Below are positions 28,611 to 41,601 of a DNA stretch of 57,557 nt, one piece after another; within the stretch, counting starts at the first letter, position 1; each line of letters starts with the position of its first letter. The notes under the pieces are model-generated. The model was not told the origin of the DNA. It was given only the letters and a program-made list of their open reading frames with translations, and did not search any database. This stretch comes from Candidatus Sulfopaludibacter sp. SbA3 (GTDB taxonomy: Bacteria > Acidobacteriota > Terriglobia > Bryobacterales > Bryobacteraceae). The translations under genes were made by a program, and so were the position numbers. The DNA lies in NCBI GenBank assembly GCA_945890485.1, contig CAMDCN010000004.1, forward strand, positions 417,813 to 475,369, written 5' to 3'.

Positions 28611-28898
28611 ATGGAAGCACTCGGCATGGTGGAAACAAAAGGCCTCGTCGGCGCAATTGAAGCGGCGGACGCAATGGTCAAGACGGCAAACGTTACGTTA
28701 ACCGGGAAAGAGTACATCGGCGCCGGCTACGTGACTGTGACCGTGCGCGGTGACGTTGGCGCGGTGAAAGCAGCGACCGACGCGGGCGCGGCGGCCGCAC
28801 GGCGTGTCGGCGAACTCGTAGCGGTGCACGTGATCCCGAATCCGCACGAGGAAGTGGAGAAGATCCTCCCTGGCGCGATGAAAAAGTCCGAGAAGTAG
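28611..28898 (+). CDS. BMC-H microcompartment shell protein
   Basis: 95 aa, a single BMC domain (Pfam BMC) like PduA/EutM/CsoS1: [20 protein letters not shown] at the start and [20 protein letters not shown] in the second half. Forms cyclic hexamers tiling the flat shell facets. The pore loop reads YIGAG (Ile36-Gly37-Ala38-Gly39) where the second BMC-H in this locus has KIGSG, so pore chemistry may differ. Ends [17 protein letters not shown]. It leads the right-pointing arm of the locus, 23 bases ahead of the aldehyde dehydrogenase. Confidence 0.97.
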
Positions 28899-28921
28899 GC
28901 CTAGCCTAGGTACTGGCAGCG

Positions 28922-30706
28922 ATGCTGCACGATCCCGACCTGCTTACGATTCAAGAGGTCCGCACGAAGGTCGAAAAGGCTTGGGCGGCGTGGGAGAAGT
29001 ACCGCTCCTTCAGCCAGGAACAGGTCGACGCGATTGTCGAGCGGATGGCGGAGGCCGCGCGTGGCAACGCGCGCAAACTCGCCGAAATGGCCGTCGAGGA
29101 GACGCGCTACGGCAACGCCCCCGACAAGGTGGCGAAGAACCTGCTTGCCGCGGAACTGCTCCCGCAGCGTCTGCGCGGCATGCGGACCATCGGAATCCTG
29201 CGCGAGCTGCCCGAAGAGCGGATCACCGAGATCGCGGCCCCGCTCGGAGTAGTTGCGGCTGTACTGCCAACGACGAATCCGACCTCCACCGCTATCTACA
29301 AGAGCCTGATTGCCCTAAAGGCGGGGAATGCCATCGTCATCAGCCCCCATCCGCGCGCCAAGGGTTGCACGTGTGCCACCGTCGAAATTCTCTACCGGGC
29401 AGCCATTTCCGCCGGAGCGCCCGAAGGCTTGTTGCAATGCCTGACGCAGCCGACCCTCGAGGCGACCAACGCGCTGATGAAGCATCCGAAGACGGCCGTC
29501 ATCCTGGCGACCGGCGGCGGCGCAATGGTGAAAGCGGCCTATTCGAGCGGTAAACCCGCCTACGGCGTCGGCCCCGGCAACGTCCCCGTCCTGCTCGACA
29601 CTTCCGCCAACGTGGAATCCTCCATCGGCAAGCTGCTCTCCGGAAAATCGTTTGATCACGGCACCCTCTGCTCGAGTGAGCAGACTCTGGTTGCCGAAGC
29701 GAGCCGGCGTGACGCCGTGCTGCAAGCCTTAAGAGCACAGGGCGCCCATGTGTGCACCCCGGAGCAAACCAAGGCCCTCGAAGGCGTCCTGTTCAACCGC
29801 GGCACCGCAGTTAACCCGGAACTCGTTGGTCACTCGGCCTCGGCCATCGCCCAGGCCGCCGGTTTCTCCGTTGCCGCCGGTTCCCGCGCGCTGGCTTGCG
29901 AGATCGGGGGCATCGGCAAGGAGTATCCGCTTTCGGCCGAAAAACTCTCCCCGGTGCTGGCCGTCCATTTTGTTCCCGATTGGCCCGCCGCGCTGGCGGC
30001 CTGCGAAAAGGTGCTCCGGTTCCATGGATTAGGCCACACCTGCGGCATTTATACGCAGGACGAGGCACGCGCCCGCGAGTACGGTCTCCGCATGCCGGCC
30101 CACCGGATCCTCGTGAATTCGCCAACGCCGCAGGGCTCTGTCGGCATTACAACCAATCTCTTCCCCGCCATGACGCTCGGCTGCGGGGCCGTGGCCGGTA
30201 ACTCCACCGGCGATAACGTGACGCCGCTTCATCTACTCAATATCAAACGCGTGGCTTGGGCCGTTCGGGAGCCGCACGAAGCCTTGCCCGCACTGGGAAA
30301 GCCTGCCACAGTAGGGGGTATAGCGATGAGCGATGGACCAATCGACAAATCCCGGGTAATCGCCGCGGTAGAAAAGGTGCTGAGCCAGCGGGGAGTCGCT
30401 TCTCCGGGAGCATCTCCCACCGCCGCCATCGTCGACCGATTTCTCGCCCGCCGCGGCGCTCCAGCGGCTCCAGCAGCTCCGGCGGAACCAGCCGAATCGA
30501 CGCCGATCCCGAAGCCTGCCATCGTCGATTTCGTCTGCGAAAACGACATCCGCGAGGCCATCCGCGACGGCCGGAAGATTCATATCTGCGCCAAGAGCAT
30601 TGTGACGCCGGCCGCCCGCGACCTCGCCAACCAGCAACGCGAAGAGGTGCTGATTCTCACGCGGAGCGACAAGAAGAAAACGGGTTCTCCCGCCACGGAC
30701 TACTAA
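28922..30706 (+). CDS. CoA-acylating aldehyde dehydrogenase, microcompartment type (PduP/EutE-like)
   Basis: 594 aa; the catalytic core is about 1-455 and the enzyme should convert an aldehyde (lactaldehyde in the proposed pathway) to acyl-CoA with NAD+. The nucleophile is Cys250 in GKSFDHGTLCSSEQ; AYGVGPGNVPV and PTPQGSVGITTNLFPAMTLG are family blocks. Unlike usual ~460-aa members, it carries a C-terminal extension: an amphipathic helix at about 475-491 (DKSRVIAAVEKVLSQRG) and a second at ~500-512, both resembling encapsulation peptides, an Ala/Pro linker, and a small domain (IVDFVCENDIREAIRDGRKI, then SIVTPAARDLANQQ). The extension probably tethers the enzyme in the shell; the last domain is unassigned. 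Confidence 0.93.
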   Translation: MLHDPDLLTIQEVRTKVEKAWAAWEKYRSFSQEQVDAIVERMAEAARGNARKLAEMAVEETRYGNAPDKVAKNLLAAELLPQRLRGMRTIGILRELPEERITEIAAPLGVVAAVLPTTNPTSTAIYKSLIALKAGNAIVISPHPRAKGCTCATVEILYRAAISAGAPEGLLQCLTQPTLEATNALMKHPKTAVILATGGGAMVKAAYSSGKPAYGVGPGNVPVLLDTSANVESSIGKLLSGKSFDHGTLCSSEQTLVAEASRRDAVLQALRAQGAHVCTPEQTKALEGVLFNRGTAVNPELVGHSASAIAQAAGFSVAAGSRALACEIGGIGKEYPLSAEKLSPVLAVHFVPDWPAALAACEKVLRFHGLGHTCGIYTQDEARAREYGLRMPAHRILVNSPTPQGSVGITTNLFPAMTLGCGAVAGNSTGDNVTPLHLLNIKRVAWAVREPHEALPALGKPATVGGIAMSDGPIDKSRVIAAVEKVLSQRGVASPGASPTAAIVDRFLARRGAPAAPAAPAEPAESTPIPKPAIVDFVCENDIREAIRDGRKIHICAKSIVTPAARDLANQQREEVLILTRSDKKKTGSPATDY

Positions 30707-30709
30707 CTC

Positions 30710-31207
30710 ATGCATCCTGACCTCGACACTCTGAAAAACGAACTTCCGCCCTACCTGGAATCGCGCGGCATTGTCGTCTTCCATGGGGAATCGCGGCTGA
30801 GCGAACATGGCGACGTCATCATGTGGGACGTCGAACGGCGGCCCGACTTCCGCGACTTCATCGAGTGTTCCCAACGCCTCTCGGTGAAGTTGGTGGTGCT
30901 GCACGCCCGCGAGTTCGAACAGCAGAGCATTGACGATGTCAGCGAGGAGCTCTCCGATTGCGAGATGCCCCAGCCGGAGCGGCGCGAAATGGAGCGCCGG
31001 TTGAAGAAGCTGGCGCCGTACACCGGGTTCACTTCGCAGATCGAAATCAGCTTCGACTACGAAGACAAGGTCTACATGTACGAGGCCCGCAGTGAGTTCA
31101 TGAACGAATTGCTGGCCATCATGAACGACATCGACCTTTGGCTGCCTCCGGGTGTCGAAGGCGAAGAGGAAGACCCGATGGGCGGCGGCTTCTTCTCACG
31201 GAATTGA
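30710..31207 (+). CDS. Hypothetical protein coupled to microcompartment aldehyde dehydrogenase
   Basis: 165 aa, unrecognised. Soluble, acidic, alpha/beta: IVVFHGESRLSEHGDVIMWD, LSVKLVVLHAREFEQQSIDD, IEISFDYEDKVYMYEARSEF, ending in an acidic Gly-rich tail (EGEEEDPMGGGFFSRN). No signal peptide, membrane segment, cofactor motif or encapsulation-type helix. The start is 3 bases after the aldehyde dehydrogenase stop and its own stop overlaps the TTG start of recJ, so it is translated with both. It could be a microcompartment accessory or a housekeeping protein of the recJ neighbourhood. Confidence 0.7.
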   Translation: MHPDLDTLKNELPPYLESRGIVVFHGESRLSEHGDVIMWDVERRPDFRDFIECSQRLSVKLVVLHAREFEQQSIDDVSEELSDCEMPQPERREMERRLKKLAPYTGFTSQIEISFDYEDKVYMYEARSEFMNELLAIMNDIDLWLPPGVEGEEEDPMGGGFFSRN

Positions 31208-32940
31208 CGAACGGACGCAAGCCCTTCCGATGGGAGCTGCCGGTGCACCCGGCCGCCGAGGTCGCTGCGTTGTCGCAAGCTCTGGGTCTCGGGCTGCCCG
31301 CCACTCGTGTGCTGTGGACGCGCGAAATCCGCAATACCGCCGACGCGGATCGGTTCCTGCGCCCATCCTTGGCTGAGCTGCATGACCCTTACGGCCTGGC
31401 CGACATGGCGAAGGCCGCATCGCGGCTAGCGCAGGCAGTCCGGAGTGGAGAAAAGATTCTGCTTTATGGCGACTACGATGTCGACGGGACGTCGTCCGTC
31501 GTCATCCTCGTCAGCGCTCTTCGACTTGCCGGCGCCTCCGTCGATTTCCACGTGCCGCACCGGATGCGCGAAGGCTATGGGATGCGCACGGAAGTCGTTG
31601 AACAGGCCGCGGCAGACGGCGTCGCGCTAATAGTCAGCGTCGATACCGGTATCCGCGCGGGAGCTGTTGTCGCCCACGCCACGCAACTCGGCATCGATGT
31701 CATCGTCACCGACCACCATCTTCCTGACGGCGAACTGCCGGCAGCTTTGGCCGTTCTCAATCCCAACCGCCTCGACTGTCCTTACCCGTCAAAGAACCTG
31801 TGCGGCGCCGCCGTCGCGCTGAAGCTGGCGCAGGCGCTGTTTGTGGAACTCGGCTGGGAACCCGCGCGGAGGGAGCGGCTGTTGGGTTCGTTCTTGAAGC
31901 TGGCTGCCATCGCTACGGTCGCCGATGTCGTCCCGCTCACAGGTGAGAATCGGGCCATCGTGAAGCATGGCCTTGAAGGTCTCCGCGATCCGCGCAACCT
32001 TGGTTTGAAGGCGTTGTTCGCCGTCGCCGGGCTCGCTGAGGGCGCCATGCCTTCCGCCCGGCAGGTGGCGTTTCAGATCGCTCCGCGCATCAACGCGGCG
32101 GGCCGCATGGACGATGCCCGCAATGTCATCGAACTCTTCCTGACCACGGACCCCGGGCGCGCAAGAGACTTGGCCGAGGCGCTCGACGCCATGAACAAAG
32201 AGCGGCAGGACACGCAAGCGGAGATCGTCAAGACCTGCGAAGCGATGCCCGTAAGCGAGGAGCAGGCCGGCTTGGTCTTTTCTGCCCCGGAGTGGCACGC
32301 CGGCGTCGTTGGCATCGTCGCGGGCCGTCTCGTTGAGCGGTTTTCGCGCCCTGTTTTCGTCCTGAGTGAAGATCCCGAAACCGGCGAAGCCAAGGGCTCT
32401 GGCCGCTGCCCGGCCAACTTTCATCTCCTCGATGCCCTCGAAAGCATGCCGGATCTGTTCCTGAAATTTGGTGGCCATCGCCAGGCGGCCGGTTTGACCA
32501 TGAAGTGTCATCGCATCGCCGAGTTTCGCGAGCGCTTCGCCGCCTACGCGGCTGCCGTGTTGAGCCAGGAGGACCGCGTGCCGGTGCTCGATATCGATGC
32601 CGAAGCGACGCTCGGTGAACTCGACGATCAAGGTGCGACGGACCTGCTAAGCCTTGCCCCGTTTGGCGCGGCGAATCAGCCTCCGCTGCTGGCCCTGCAG
32701 GGGCTCGATCTGGTTCTCACGCCGGAAGTGAAGAACGATAAACACCTGTTCCTGAAAGTCCGCCAGGATGGCGTGATGCGGCAGATCAAAGGTTGGAACA
32801 TGGCAGAAGTGGGCGCACCGTTCCGTGCGGGCGATCGGGTAGACGTCGCCGTGCTCGTTGAAGAGGATGCCTGGAGCCGCGCGCGCGGGGGCGCTGGATG
32901 GGGCCTGATTCTCAAAGATCTGCGGCGGTCTGGCAGCTAA
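31204..32940 (+). CDS. recJ: Single-stranded-DNA-specific exonuclease RecJ
   Basis: 578 aa from a TTG at 31204 that overlaps the upstream stop (TTGA); this start puts the conserved RKPFRWELPV N-terminus first. DHH phosphoesterase motifs: LLYGDYDVDGTSSVV, VDTGIRAGAVV, VIVTDHHLPDGE. The DHHA1 nucleic-acid binding motif GGHRQAAGLTM and the C-terminal OB-fold region (LALQGLDLVLTPEVKNDKHL) complete a normal RecJ. 5'-3' ssDNA exonuclease in recombination and repair. Its place inside a microcompartment locus looks incidental. Confidence 0.96.
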   Translation: MTNGRKPFRWELPVHPAAEVAALSQALGLGLPATRVLWTREIRNTADADRFLRPSLAELHDPYGLADMAKAASRLAQAVRSGEKILLYGDYDVDGTSSVVILVSALRLAGASVDFHVPHRMREGYGMRTEVVEQAAADGVALIVSVDTGIRAGAVVAHATQLGIDVIVTDHHLPDGELPAALAVLNPNRLDCPYPSKNLCGAAVALKLAQALFVELGWEPARRERLLGSFLKLAAIATVADVVPLTGENRAIVKHGLEGLRDPRNLGLKALFAVAGLAEGAMPSARQVAFQIAPRINAAGRMDDARNVIELFLTTDPGRARDLAEALDAMNKERQDTQAEIVKTCEAMPVSEEQAGLVFSAPEWHAGVVGIVAGRLVERFSRPVFVLSEDPETGEAKGSGRCPANFHLLDALESMPDLFLKFGGHRQAAGLTMKCHRIAEFRERFAAYAAAVLSQEDRVPVLDIDAEATLGELDDQGATDLLSLAPFGAANQPPLLALQGLDLVLTPEVKNDKHLFLKVRQDGVMRQIKGWNMAEVGAPFRAGDRVDVAVLVEEDAWSRARGGAGWGLILKDLRRSGS

Positions 32941-33195
32941 TTACTCCCGCCGAAGCCCGACATCGGGGCTCACGGGCGCAGCCAGCCAAGTGGGGAGGCC
33001 GCCGACAAGATAACGAGCACAACGGTCGCGGCGATTGCCTCCCGGAATGACATTCGCTTGCTGCAGCAGCGGCTCTTCGGGCTCCTTTCCGGTTTCGTCC
33101 TCGATGACCCAAACAATCTGCCATAGCCTGACTCTCGACTTTTCGTGATGTATGTCAAGAAGTCCCACTTCCAGGTTGGTACAGTAGTACGATCC

Positions 33196-33792
33196 ATGCA
33201 TTCGCGCCGTTTCCTTGCCTTCTTCGTGGGCCTTTGGCTCGCTGGTCTATTGGTAGTCTCATTTGTCACTAACTTCAGCGCCCGCACCGTCAACGCCGTC
33301 ATGGAAAACCCGCCCCACGAAGCCAGCAAATGGGTCGACATCCTTGGTAAAGACCGTACCCGCACCCTCCTCCTACACAACACCGCCGAAGTGAACCGGA
33401 ACGTACTCGAAATCTGGGGCTACGCCGACATCGTCCTTTGCGTATTCATCCTCATCACCGCCGTCATGATCAAAAGCGGAAAACCGGCTATGATCGCCTC
33501 CGCGCTGCTCCTGATCCTCGGCCTCGCCTCGGTGTATCTGCTCACCCCTCAGGTCGTCGCCGTGGGACGCCTGTTGGATTTTCGGCCCAGCTTTCCCGTC
33601 CCCCCGGAAATGGCGCAGTTCGCCTCGTTAAATGGCATGTTCACGGGGCTGGGCGTCATTCGAGGCCTCACCGCGTTGGCAATGGCCGGCATTTTGATTC
33701 ACCGCACGAGCAAAACGCGCTCACGCCGGAGTAGCCGCATCGACGAGGTCGATGCGGTCGATAACACCAATAACCGCCATATCAATCGGTGA
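33196..33792 (+). CDS. Membrane protein of unknown function
   Basis: 198 aa from the ATG at 33196 (MHSRRFLAFFVGLWLAGLLV); an earlier in-frame start at 33145 is less plausible because the membrane segment would be pushed inward. Four membrane segments: about 6-26, 76-96, 98-118 and 150-170. The loop between the first two (ARTVNAVMENPPHEASKWVD, then RTLLLHNTAEVNRN) is probably extracytoplasmic, as in DUF4149-like proteins, but the family is not certain. The basic C-terminal tail overlaps the end of the convergent BMC-P gene by 72 bases. Confidence 0.65.
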   Translation: MHSRRFLAFFVGLWLAGLLVVSFVTNFSARTVNAVMENPPHEASKWVDILGKDRTRTLLLHNTAEVNRNVLEIWGYADIVLCVFILITAVMIKSGKPAMIASALLLILGLASVYLLTPQVVAVGRLLDFRPSFPVPPEMAQFASLNGMFTGLGVIRGLTALAMAGILIHRTSKTRSRRSSRIDEVDAVDNTNNRHINR

Positions 33793-34011
33793 GTCCGGCC
33801 GGCCCACCGCCGTCATGGCGCTGAAACCCTCGGTGACGAGCAGCACCAGATCGCCCGGGCCCGCATCGACAGCGTCCACCGCCAAGATGGCATCGCCCCG
33901 TGGCGTCGTCTGGTCCAACTGCACCGGCTGGACCAGAAGCAACTTCTGTCCCTCGTGGCTCGCGTTCTTGACGGTCGCCACCGCATCGCCGATCACCCGC
34001 GCCATCAGCAT
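33721..34011 (-). CDS. BMC-P pentameric shell vertex protein (EutN/CcmL family), third copy
   Basis: 96 aa. Typical EutN/CcmL: MARVIGDAVATVKN, KLLLVQPVQLD, AILAVDAVDAGPGDLVLLV and the closing strand DMAVIGVIDRIDLV. Pentamers cap the vertices of the icosahedral shell. It is the last gene of the reverse shell operon, 4 bases after the second copy, and its 3' end overlaps the opposing membrane protein gene by 72 bases. ATG codons at 34011 and 34005 are both possible starts. Confidence 0.94.
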   Translation of the reverse strand: MLMARVIGDAVATVKNASHEGQKLLLVQPVQLDQTTPRGDAILAVDAVDAGPGDLVLLVTEGFSAMTAVGRPDSPIDMAVIGVIDRIDLVDAATPA

Positions 34012-34015
34012 ACGT

Positions 34016-34285
34016 TCACCCGGCCACCCTCAATTGATCGATGATCCCGACAATCGTCGTATCCGTCGGCACTTCCACGGGCAGGAATGGAAAACTCGAC
34101 TCCTTTCCGCGCGTCCAATAAACCAACTCCCCAGCCCCGGCCCCAATCGAGTCCGTGCACACAATCTGCTTTCCGGTCGGCTGCATCGCCGGCGTCAGTG
34201 GCTGCACAATCAGCAGGCGCTGGCTAGCCAACCCCGGATCCTTCACCGTCGAAACGACGCGGCCAATCACCTTGCCGATGTACAT
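34016..34285 (-). CDS. BMC-P pentameric shell vertex protein, second copy
   Basis: 89 aa EutN/CcmL domain: MYIGKVIGRVVSTVKDP, RLLIVQPLTP, IVCTDSIGAGAGELVYWTRG and TIVGIIDQLRVAG. Differs from the other two in having YWTRGKESS in place of the usual hydrophobic strand, so the three copies are not recent duplicates. Two bases separate it from the first copy. Expected at shell vertices, possibly in mixed use with the other paralogs. Confidence 0.95.
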   Translation of the reverse strand: MYIGKVIGRVVSTVKDPGLASQRLLIVQPLTPAMQPTGKQIVCTDSIGAGAGELVYWTRGKESSFPFLPVEVPTDTTIVGIIDQLRVAG

Positions 34286-34287
34286 CG

Positions 34288-34575
34288 CTAACTGCCTTTC
34301 GTGGCGCCCTTGTCCAGGCTGATCGTATCGACAATGCCGATAATCGCGGTATCAACCGGGCGGTCTTTACAACCTTCGGCCATGCGCGCCGAACTGCCGG
34401 TCACCGCGATCACCGTTTCCCGGAATCCCGCTCCCACGGCGTCGACGGCGATCAAATAGCTGCCTTCGTCTTTGCCTTCCGGCGTCACCGGCTTAATGAT
34501 CAAAAGCTTCTTGCCGTCCAGGCGCGGATCCTTGCGCGTGGCGACGATCGTTCCGACTACGCGCGCCAGGATCAT
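34288..34575 (-). CDS. BMC-P pentameric shell vertex protein, first copy
   Basis: 95 aa EutN/CcmL domain: MILARVVGTIVATRKDP, KLLIIKPVTPEG, LIAVDAVGAGFRETVIAVTG and AIIGIVDTISLDKG. The ATG directly follows the stop of the reverse-strand BMC-H gene with no spacer, so translation is coupled. Structural shell protein at the vertices. Confidence 0.95.
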   Translation of the reverse strand: MILARVVGTIVATRKDPRLDGKKLLIIKPVTPEGKDEGSYLIAVDAVGAGFRETVIAVTGSSARMAEGCKDRPVDTAIIGIVDTISLDKGATKGS

Positions 34576-34863
34576 CTATTTCCCATTCGCCTTGCCAATC
34601 GGGAGTACTCCCTCCAGGCTGGCATGCGGACGCGGAATCACGTGGACGCTCACCAATTCGCCTACGCGCCGCGCCGCCGCCGCGCCGGCGTCTGTTGCCG
34701 CCCGCACCGCCGCCACGTCGCCGCGGACGATCGCCGTCACGTAGCCCGAGCCAATCTTCTCCCAGCCCACCAGCCGGACGTTGGCCGCCTTCACCATCGC
34801 GTCCGCGGCTTCTATCATCGAGACCAGACCGCGGGTCTCCACCATTCCAAGTGCGTCACCCAT
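34576..34863 (-). CDS. BMC-H microcompartment shell protein, second copy
   Basis: 95 aa BMC domain: [20 protein letters not shown], pore loop WEKIGSG (Ser39) and [20 protein letters not shown]. The canonical KIGSG pore differs from the YIGAG of the forward-arm copy. About 75% of positions look shared with that copy by eye, so one may derive from the other. It follows the aldolase gene by about 48 bases and abuts the first BMC-P gene. Confidence 0.97.
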
Positions 34864-34911
34864 AATTCAACCTCAAAGTATCTCGCAACCGGATGCCGTT
34901 GTCGATGCTCC

Positions 34912-35694
34912 TTACCGGCCCGCGCGCACAGCCTCGTCGATCAACGCAATCAACTCTTCCCGCGTCACGGTAATCCGCCCATCCCCTGCCACATCGCCGG
35001 CCACATCCCCGGCCGTGATCGGACACCCCGGAGTCGCCTTCGAATTCGATTGGATCCCATACCGCGACCGCGCCTCAAACAGCCGGTCCACCTCGTGCCG
35101 GTCCAGTAGCTTCGGTCCGCCCAACTGCTCGGCCACCAAGGCGATCTTGGCCACATGCTCCACGGTCTCCATCTTGTGGAACGCGCTCCATAGGTCCGCC
35201 CCGCCGCACACCACGCCATGATTGCCCAATAGAATCGCGTCGTAGTGCGGAATAAAAGGCTTCAACGTGTCGCTCAACTCGGGCGTCCCCGGCAGACCGT
35301 AGGGCGCGAGCGGGACACAGCCTAGGTTCACGACAACCTCGGGCAGAATCGCCATGTTCAGAGCCCGGCCCGCCACCGCGAAACCTGTCGCGATCGGTGC
35401 GTGTGCGTGCGCCACGGCGTGCACGTCCGGCCGCATCTCATACATCGTCAGATGCATCAGAATCTCGCTCGTCCGCTCCCGCCGACCCGCGATCTTCTTG
35501 CCGCGCATGTCGCAGATGATCAAATCATCGACGGCCATCCGGCCCTTGCTGATGCCTGTCGGCGTACACAAAATCCGCTCGGCATCCAGCCGTACGCTGA
35601 TGTTGCCGTCGTTCGACGCCACCCAGCCCTTCTCGTACATGAGGCGGCCGATATCGACGATATCCTGCCTGAGTTTTTGTTCTTCCTGCGCCAC
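34912..35694 (-). CDS. Class II aldolase (L-fuculose/rhamnulose-phosphate aldolase-like) with encapsulation peptide
   Basis: 260 aa from GTG at 35694, chosen because GAGG sits 5 bases upstream. Class II aldolase/adducin fold: Glu77 (RTSEILMH), zinc ligands His96 and His98 (VAHAHAP) and His159 (LLGNHGVV), as in FucA. It would split a ketose 1-phosphate to dihydroxyacetone phosphate and lactaldehyde. After the catalytic domain a Gly/Ala/Asp linker (repeated AGDV) leads to a C-terminal amphipathic helix, VTREELIALIDEAVRAG (243-259), the classic form of an encapsulation peptide. First gene of the reverse arm of the BMC locus; diverges from the rhomboid gene over 30 bases. Confidence 0.93.
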   Translation of the reverse strand: MAQEEQKLRQDIVDIGRLMYEKGWVASNDGNISVRLDAERILCTPTGISKGRMAVDDLIICDMRGKKIAGRRERTSEILMHLTMYEMRPDVHAVAHAHAPIATGFAVAGRALNMAILPEVVVNLGCVPLAPYGLPGTPELSDTLKPFIPHYDAILLGNHGVVCGGADLWSAFHKMETVEHVAKIALVAEQLGGPKLLDRHEVDRLFEARSRYGIQSNSKATPGCPITAGDVAGDVAGDGRITVTREELIALIDEAVRAGR

Positions 35695-40725: not shown

Positions 40726-41601
40726 TTACTCCAAAAATCGCCCGGCCGCGTTCGCGCGGTCGAGCTTTCGAAAATGGTCAAACACAATCTTGGTAGCACC
40801 CGGCACCGGGCTTTCTCCGCCCAGGTACGCGCCAAACACCGCAATCGCAAACGGCCGCTTCGGCAGCATCACGATCCCGAACTCGCACTTCACGCCTTCT
40901 AGCGACCCCGTCTTCGTCGCCGTCCCCGCTGGCACGACCGCCTTGCGAACATCCCCCTTCACCAAACCCATGAACTCCAAAATCTCCCGCGACGAGACCG
41001 CGTCCAGAACCTTGCCGCTATATAGCATTTCCGCCAGGCGCGCCATGTCCCGCGGCGTCGCAATATTCTCACGGTCCGCCTTCGCCGCCCCCAGGTCAAT
41101 CATCTTCCGCCGCAGCCGGATCCCCGGCAGGTTCATCTCATCCATCCGCGTATTCACCGCCGCGAACCCGCCCGCCAGGTCGATCAACTTGTTCGTCGCC
41201 GAATTGTCCGAGTTCTGAATCATGATCGTGATCAGCTCCCGCACCGACAGCGACCCCGCCTCCGCCACGGCCTTCTCATAAGCCGCGCTCGAAGGAACCA
41301 CCTCGCTCTTGCTCACCGGCACCCGCTGGTCGTAACTCAACTTCCCCGCCCGGATCAACCGCACCACCTCGACAAGCACCGGAACCTTAATCGTCGACGC
41401 CGTCGGGAACCACGTATCGCATTGGTAGCAAAGCCGCCCCCCGGTCTTCAAATCGATCACGGCCACACCCATCGTGCCGTCCAGCCCCGCGTCCATCGCG
41501 GCCAACTTCGCCAGCGTCTTCGCTTCCAACAGGTCGCCGCCCGCCGCCTGCCCGAACAGCGGCCCCACCAGGAAAACCCAACTGAACCAGCGCAGCGTCA
41601 T
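40726..41601 (-). CDS. Class A beta-lactamase-like serine hydrolase
   Basis: 291 aa with signal peptide MTLRWFSWVFLVGPLFGQA. Three active-site motifs are intact: S69-T-I-K72, S131-D-N133 (MIQNSDNSAT) and KTGSLEG near the C-terminus. The omega loop reads RRKMIDLGAAKADRENIATP and has no clear Glu166-x-x-x-Asn170, so it may bind penicillins or act on peptidoglycan without efficient beta-lactam hydrolysis. It is the first gene of a six-gene reverse operon and diverges from the HerA-like ATPase. Confidence 0.85.
   Translation of the reverse strand: MTLRWFSWVFLVGPLFGQAAGGDLLEAKTLAKLAAMDAGLDGTMGVAVIDLKTGGRLCYQCDTWFPTASTIKVPVLVEVVRLIRAGKLSYDQRVPVSKSEVVPSSAAYEKAVAEAGSLSVRELITIMIQNSDNSATNKLIDLAGGFAAVNTRMDEMNLPGIRLRRKMIDLGAAKADRENIATPRDMARLAEMLYSGKVLDAVSSREILEFMGLVKGDVRKAVVPAGTATKTGSLEGVKCEFGIVMLPKRPFAIAVFGAYLGGESPVPGATKIVFDHFRKLDRANAAGRFLE

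Follow-up and report, generated by a model that had tools for sequence, protein, structure and literature searches.

Two gene groups of a probable ACI-like microcompartment lying side by side in a Bryobacterales genome

Introduction

Do two sets of genes that face each other on opposite strands belong to a single bacterial microcompartment (BMC) and, if so, of which type and for which substrate? The question is raised by a stretch of 57,557 nucleotides (hereafter the window) of contig CAMDCN010000004.1, from the genome of Candidatus Sulfopaludibacter sp. SbA3 (G000 in our numbering; 7.13 Mb, 35 contigs, 97% complete). A BMC-H shell gene and a CoA-acylating aldehyde dehydrogenase (AldDh) lie there on the forward strand, while a class II aldolase, a second BMC-H and three BMC-P lie on the reverse strand (Table 1). 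A first-pass annotation had described this as one locus split over two transcripts, akin to the planctomycete/verrucomicrobial (PVM) compartment and acting on fucose or rhamnose. Family searches confirmed the shell genes and enzymes of both arms at nearly the coordinates it gave, and a gene that we take to be recJ lies between the arms together with uncharacterised genes, as described. The type and the substrate came out differently. We compare the locus mainly with ACI, a microcompartment type of prominent soil bacteria for which no substrate is known in the parts of Sutter 2021 (PMC8217296) on which we draw.

Results and discussion

One shell and an ACI-like gene content

Searches of the whole window genome returned two matches to PF00936 and three to PF03319, every one in the window locus, so that one shell can be built from the genes present. 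The PF00936 search would also catch BMC-T, of which none was seen in the assembly; its matches are the two BMC-H only, and the absence of BMC-T reported in the first-pass annotation is upheld.

In the portions of Sutter 2021 used here (PMC8217296), an ACI locus comprises an aldolase with a C-terminal encapsulation peptide, a hydroxyacid dehydrogenase, a BMC-P triplet and BMC-H, with the AldDh on a satellite locus, and the type is found in Acidobacteria only, mainly in subdivisions 4 and 6. The window shares with it the PF00596 aldolase ending in what appears to be an encapsulation-peptide-like helix, the BMC-P triplet accompanied in the locus by at least one BMC-H, the AldDh in a gene group of its own and the acidobacterial host. 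It differs in belonging to Bryobacterales, in having its satellite next to the main locus and in lacking a hydroxyacid dehydrogenase beside the locus. Since the ACI traits are present except for this last enzyme, and the placement of the satellite is left open, we call the window an ACI-like variant; it resembles ACI more closely than PVM.

Two gene groups that usually lie apart

The genes fall into a satellite group (BMC-H, AldDh, a 165-residue protein that we call C4, and recJ) and a main group (aldolase, BMC-H and three BMC-P). Both recur in relatives, so this grouping is not due to chance. Among 150 genomes drawn from the order, the AldDh search at E <= 1e-80 gave 94, but G036, G109 and G131 match only through other aldehyde dehydrogenases or AdhE, which leaves 91. 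Twenty loci were fetched around the AldDh from these 91 genomes (L039-L058), and a BMC-H lies 5' of the gene in all 20, followed on the 3' side by C4 in 17 and by recJ in 18. BMC-H is equally constant upstream of the AldDh in a draw of 297 genomes from the phylum (20/20 loci, L079-L098), but there the presence of C4 and recJ behind it is limited to the two loci of the window's class. A metagenome-assembled genome titled Candidatus Solibacter sp. (L227) has the same order of BMC-H, AldDh, C4 and recJ.

Satellite and main group are joined in only six of the genomes read (G000, G032, G089, G070, G091 and G107), all of one genus. By match coordinates they share a contig in G102, about 13 kb apart, and in four genomes with long contigs (G005, G008, G019 and G104) they are at least 200 kb apart; in most draft genomes they are on different contigs, where the distance is not readable. 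Within the window's own genus, no main locus appears in the 20 kb of sequence surrounding the satellite in G114, G133 and G056. In G114, G133 and G073 the main locus is still flanked, in whole or in part, by the genes that lie to the right of it in the window (rhomboid, cytochrome c, PQQ protein, DJ-1 and DUF853-like genes, named by eye except the rhomboid; throughout, gene names without a family search were assigned by eye), and the satellite is not there. The likeliest event is therefore that the satellite and recJ moved beside an existing main locus, probably in part of the genus. Separation of the arms is the more usual state and adjacency looks like a derived one, and the opposing transcripts are most likely an old separation brought close rather than one torn operon. 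The idea of a single locus split over two transcripts is thus not borne out, as the groups lie apart in most loci read.

This separation is also what would be expected if the two arms were unrelated neighbours instead of parts of one organelle. We consider that very improbable: most satellites have no BMC-P and main loci have no AldDh, each arm being incomplete alone in most loci read, no further shell genes were found in the window genome, and the two enzymes co-occur strongly. The aldolase matches 124 of the 150 order genomes at E <= 1e-40, 111 of them strongly; both enzymes are present in 78 genomes, the strong aldolase only in 33, the AldDh only in 13 and neither in 26 (p 1e-4). Over the phylum the unlinked genes still go together. 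Aldolase matches at E <= 1e-40 come from 129 genomes of that draw; the AldDh search gave 99 genomes at E <= 1e-100, of which 93 scored at least 420 bits. Both are present in 83, aldolase only in 46, AldDh only in 10 and neither in 158 (Fisher p ~1e-28, a statistic that ignores kinship). Such co-occurrence fits the suggestion, in the part of Axen 2014 drawn on here (PMC4207490), that two loci of Ca. Solibacter usitatus, one of them without BMC-P, could build one organelle. Compared by description, those loci are separate and those of the window adjacent. For cloning, the window's clade offers both halves in one compact stretch.

Comparison with PVM-type loci

The same source names the two Solibacter loci 'PVM-like', and the resemblance is real at the level of enzyme classes: an aldolase, an acylating AldDh and several BMC-P are common to PVM and to the window, and one PVM-type aldolase likewise carries a cysteine-containing linker and a C-terminal helix. 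Our comparison used PVM-type loci of the same order as references rather than typed PVM loci. These loci, marked by PduL, occur in 7 of the 150 order genomes, and their stretches hold BMC-H, a second class II aldolase, an AldDh (6/7) and, where contigs extend, BMC-P; one of them (L167) shows acetate-kinase- (AckA-), PduL- and DeoR-like genes by eye. PduL is present in all seven, whereas the window genome has no PduL match, and the 'TPSARD' module at the N-terminus of the PVM aldolase has its counterpart at the C-terminus of the window's AldDh.

The phylogenies set the two types apart. One fully supported, starred branch (100) of the AldDh tree has 41 ACI-like rows on one side and 8 PVM-type rows on the other; the window's enzyme shares 28-30% identity with the PVM-type rows but 45-93% with all remaining ones, and its clade contains satellites from many families of Acidobacteria. 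In the aldolase tree, a single clade (96/93) holds the 23 ACI-like rows, apart from PVM-type, FucA, Ald2 and OtnC rows, and the window aldolase is 18-36% identical to PVM-type aldolases; in a larger quick tree, the ACI-like and PVM-type labels need two changes. Both enzymes thus stand on the ACI-like side, and of the first-pass proposal the microcompartment with aldolase and acylating AldDh stands while its PVM kinship is not supported.

Nor is a deoxysugar substrate supported. A PVM-like compartment would turn fucose or rhamnose into lactaldehyde and then lactyl-CoA. Neither the window genome nor the other 11 members of its genus have a match to RhaA (12/12 without; the RhaI type was not covered by this search). 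The C-terminal domain of FucI has no match in the window genome and no strong one in the genus, G114 and G133 having partial matches barely above the cut-off. In 40 of the 91 AldDh genomes, RhaA has no match and no FucI match reaches 57 bits. Together with the missing PduL and the separate clades, this makes the fucose or rhamnose reading improbable. On its side, RhaA, above cut-off in 18 of the 150 order genomes, is enriched with the AldDh (16 of the 18, p 0.009, with 11 of the 16 in a single family, f3), and FucI shows a similar tendency (40/57, p 0.08).

These two trends count against our own assignment, as do several other results. A 2-hydroxyacid dehydrogenase was not found in the window locus with a model built from L066 (the genome as a whole was not searched for it), nor in any of 20 order loci (L099-L118); in another set of 20 loci (L059-L078) such an enzyme (PF00389/PF02826) follows the main group in six. 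Among NCBIfam models the aldolase scores best with that of the decarboxylase OtnC, its 136 bits falling far short of the 250-bit cut-off. The AldDh is missing from 33 of the 111 genomes with a strong aldolase, and 13 AldDh genomes have no strong aldolase match. Finally, the BMC-P and BMC-H trees are weak, with few columns and some wrong-frame rows, and deserve little weight beyond the positional orthology of the triplet. All in all, we regard the ACI-like type and the core reactions set out below, leaving the substrate aside, as very probable.

Two observations concern the order at large. The PVM-type loci (L165-L172) mean that Bryobacterales hold two types of aldolase microcompartment, and four genomes with PVM-type loci also have an AldDh of the window's type. 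Genus g11 (G028, G038, G039, G048 and G051; L173) has an ACI-like AldDh without a strong match to the ACI aldolase and carries an aldolase of 36-37% identity; in G038 the latter adjoins a PVM-type AldDh, and the 20 kb stretch examined there gave no match to a shell gene.

Relatives that keep the aldolase without an adjacent shell

In an alignment, the aldolase retains the zinc histidines and the catalytic glutamate of E. coli FucA. Behind the enzyme domain comes a short linker with PGCP and then, judged by sequence, an encapsulation-peptide-like helix. We read 64 of the 111 strong aldolase loci of the order. They come from every one of the 33 genomes that have the aldolase without the AldDh and from 31 of the 78 that have both enzymes. 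Shell genes adjoin the aldolase in 31/31 of the latter and in 3/33 of the former (G004, G035 and G073), and the linker cysteine and the helix are present in all 34 shell-adjacent aldolases. At the other 30 loci no BMC-H or BMC-P lies beside the aldolase (a genome-wide shell search was not made). One of these sequences (G060) ends 54 bases past the matched part, so that its cysteine is not judgeable; in the remaining 29 the cysteine is gone in 28, replaced by many different residues, and kept in one (G149). The helix is kept in 25 of the 29 and lost in four (five counting G060).

What is new here is that some relatives without shell and AldDh keep the aldolase, and that its linker cysteine tracks the shell. 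The best aldolase tree needs three shell changes, only one of them forced by starred branches; the association is a pattern and not a proof by independent contrasts. Because shell and AldDh were lost together, the cysteine could serve either. These relatives are nevertheless a natural control for the demands of encapsulation, and single out one cysteine and, with less force, a helix.

Shell pores and the aldehyde dehydrogenase

A second new observation is that the two BMC-H types differ at the pore. A tyrosine or phenylalanine opens the pore motif in 78/78 satellite BMC-H counted, and a lysine or arginine takes the same place in 37/37 from main loci. For these counts a BMC-H was assigned by its nearest neighbour and needed both a motif match and a neighbour on its own strand; Firmicutes loci were excluded, and some genomes enter twice.

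The AldDh scores best with TIGR02518, below the 620-bit cut-off of that model, and matches the acetaldehyde dehydrogenase of PDB 5j78 at E 7e-137. Its C-terminal extension of about 140 residues ends in an 'FVCE-D-R...TPAARDLA' module, conserved in the relatives aligned, that weakly resembles the N-termini of PVM-type aldolases and open reading frames of Firmicutes BMC loci (E 2e-5 to 0.08 in a small set, in which one non-BMC reading frame reached 0.29); against TIGR02536, EutQ and EutT the values are 0.004-0.03. Among named loci, 70 of the best 80 relatives (of 317) carry acidobacterial titles. Of the other ten, a metagenome-assembled genome titled Bacillota (L279) matches residues 4-584 and the others stop by residue 491.

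A possible pathway and its substrate

The gene content, the order of the genes, their conservation, the clades and the uniqueness of the locus in the assembly are direct observations, and the following scheme would account for them. Two BMC-H and three BMC-P would form a shell with no BMC-T, and the aldolase would probably be held inside through its C-terminal helix. By family, the aldolase would cleave a ketose-1-phosphate into dihydroxyacetone phosphate (DHAP) and a short aldehyde, which the AldDh would convert with NAD+ to an acyl-CoA; DHAP, NADH and the acyl-CoA would then enter central metabolism, with no PduL step.

As substrate we tentatively favour 5-deoxy- or 5-methylthio-ribulose-1-phosphate, made by MtnA from by-products of S-adenosylmethionine (SAM). 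In such a shell-enclosed DHAP shunt, a possible reading but an unsure one, the aldolase would give DHAP with acetaldehyde or methylthioacetaldehyde, the AldDh would yield acetyl-CoA or its methylthio analogue, and the shell would contain the aldehyde. The window genome has MtnA (G000:C12:59988-60947, 427 bits), gives no match to RhaA or FucI and shows none to ARD, which is over cut-off in only 3 of the 150 order genomes; with ARD nearly absent, classic methionine salvage is an unlikely outlet. That the best score of the AldDh is with an acetaldehyde dehydrogenase model also speaks for this route. At five ACI-like main loci the neighbours are housekeeping-like by eye, and no sugar-specific regulator or transporter was recognised there.

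A third new observation comes from a plasmid collection in which 1,260 records match the aldolase, the best 30 being listed and six examined. Among the matches listed, the top ones are Acetoanaerobium noterae (43%), Rhodobacter (45% over 79%), Rhizobium (43%), Pusillibacter (39%, next to mtnA and a gene for a purine nucleoside phosphorylase) and Staphylococcus (39%, adjoining fucI); the aldolase of a Caballeronia mtnK-mtnA-aldolase cluster is 34% identical. In A. noterae (NZ_CP154629; L297 15968-30727), a one-strand BMC row contains the aldolase, an AldDh, BMC-H genes, PduL and BMC-P, and continues with others, among them a transporter (by eye), MtnK (TIGR01767) and MtnA (TIGR00512). The row looks like a 5-deoxyribose/methylthioribose microcompartment and makes a shell-enclosed DHAP shunt plausible. 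Its aldolase shares with that of the window the BMC setting, the linker cysteine and the C-terminal helix; the row differs in having PduL, four BMC-H-like genes (by eye), one BMC-P, a transporter and DeoR-like genes, and its AldDh has PRK15398 and not TIGR02518 as best model. In our literature search no paper was found that ties microcompartments to the DHAP shunt, to mtnK or to methylthioadenosine with an aldolase.

Several results speak against the DHAP shunt. MtnA is near-universal (142/150 order genomes) and not associated with the aldolase (107/111 versus 35/39, p 0.21), four aldolase genomes (G071, G102, G125 and G033) have no MtnA match, and no mtn gene was noticed beside any ACI-like locus. 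Relatives of the aldolase include, by alignment, the one next to fucI in Staphylococcus (38%) and one adjoining an FGGY kinase in Rhodobacter (42%). With E. coli Ald2 58% identical to E. coli FucA, sequence hardly reports the substrate. The shunt also gives no role to the hydroxyacid dehydrogenase found in other ACI loci. In the section of PMC10986504 consulted, moreover, the shunt is irrelevant to salvage and detoxification in E. coli ATCC 25922, although in R. rubrum and R. palustris it salvages sulfur.

It is also quite possible, if short of probable, that another ketose-1-phosphate from some other sugar is used, in keeping with the passages of Sutter 2021 drawn on here, where ACI is proposed to have a generic carbohydrate role (PMC8217296). 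The portion of Axen 2014 at hand calls class II aldolases quite promiscuous (PMC4207490), and the 2-hydroxyacid dehydrogenase of other ACI-like loci would suit such a role. Against it, no sugar kinase, isomerase or transporter was recognised by eye in the window arms or at the five main loci, where no systematic family searches were made.

Returning to the MtnA-derived substrates, we put forward with some reserve the broader conjecture that the ACI-like compartment is a housekeeping organelle, a shelled DHAP shunt for the sugars of the SAM by-products 5'-deoxyadenosine and methylthioadenosine. The A. noterae row would be its inducible anaerobic counterpart, and the organelle would have been dismantled in at least one Bryobacteraceae lineage, where the aldolase was kept and the linker cysteine lost as mattering only inside the shell. 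If this were true, it would concern an organelle whose aldolase and AldDh co-occur in 83 of the 297 genomes drawn from the phylum. The presence of MtnK and MtnA in the A. noterae row points to a specific and inexpensive test of the substrate.

Features of the window and further observations

Table 1. Genes of the two arms and between them, with window positions.
Feature	Position	Strand	Remarks
Satellite BMC-H	28611-28898	+	PF00936 E 1.4e-28; pore residues YIGAG
AldDh, 594 aa	28922-30706	+	PF00171 E 4e-27; TIGR02518 549 bits
C4, 165 aa, between AldDh and recJ	30710-31207	+	No Pfam or NCBIfam match
Presumed recJ, satellite neighbour	31138-32940	+	True start probably near 31216
Membrane-like protein, 215 aa	33145-33792	+	Goes with main locus, not satellite
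BMC-P, third of triplet	33721-34011	-	PF03319 E 2.4e-23
BMC-P, second of triplet	34016-34285	-	PF03319 E 2.2e-26
BMC-P, first of triplet	34288-34575	-	PF03319 E 5.2e-30; positional orthologues in other ACI-like loci
Main-locus BMC-H	34576-34863	-	PF00936 E 1.1e-31; pore residues KIGSG
Class II aldolase	34912-35694	-	PF00596 E 9e-47; most likely start GTG 35694; TTG 35748 possible, relatives aligning only downstream of it

C4 has no convincing match in the PDB either, and its AlphaFold model has a mean pLDDT of 86. The gene for the 215-residue membrane-like protein adjoins the aldolase locus in many relatives, shell-less ones included. The window genome encodes a second class II aldolase on contig 10 (L154 9059-10912), next to an OtnK-like gene (a tetronate kinase, by eye) and with a LacI-type regulator, also identified by eye, in its surroundings. 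Elsewhere in the window, the open reading frame at 40726-41601 on the reverse strand has, by eye, the look of a class A serine beta-lactamase.

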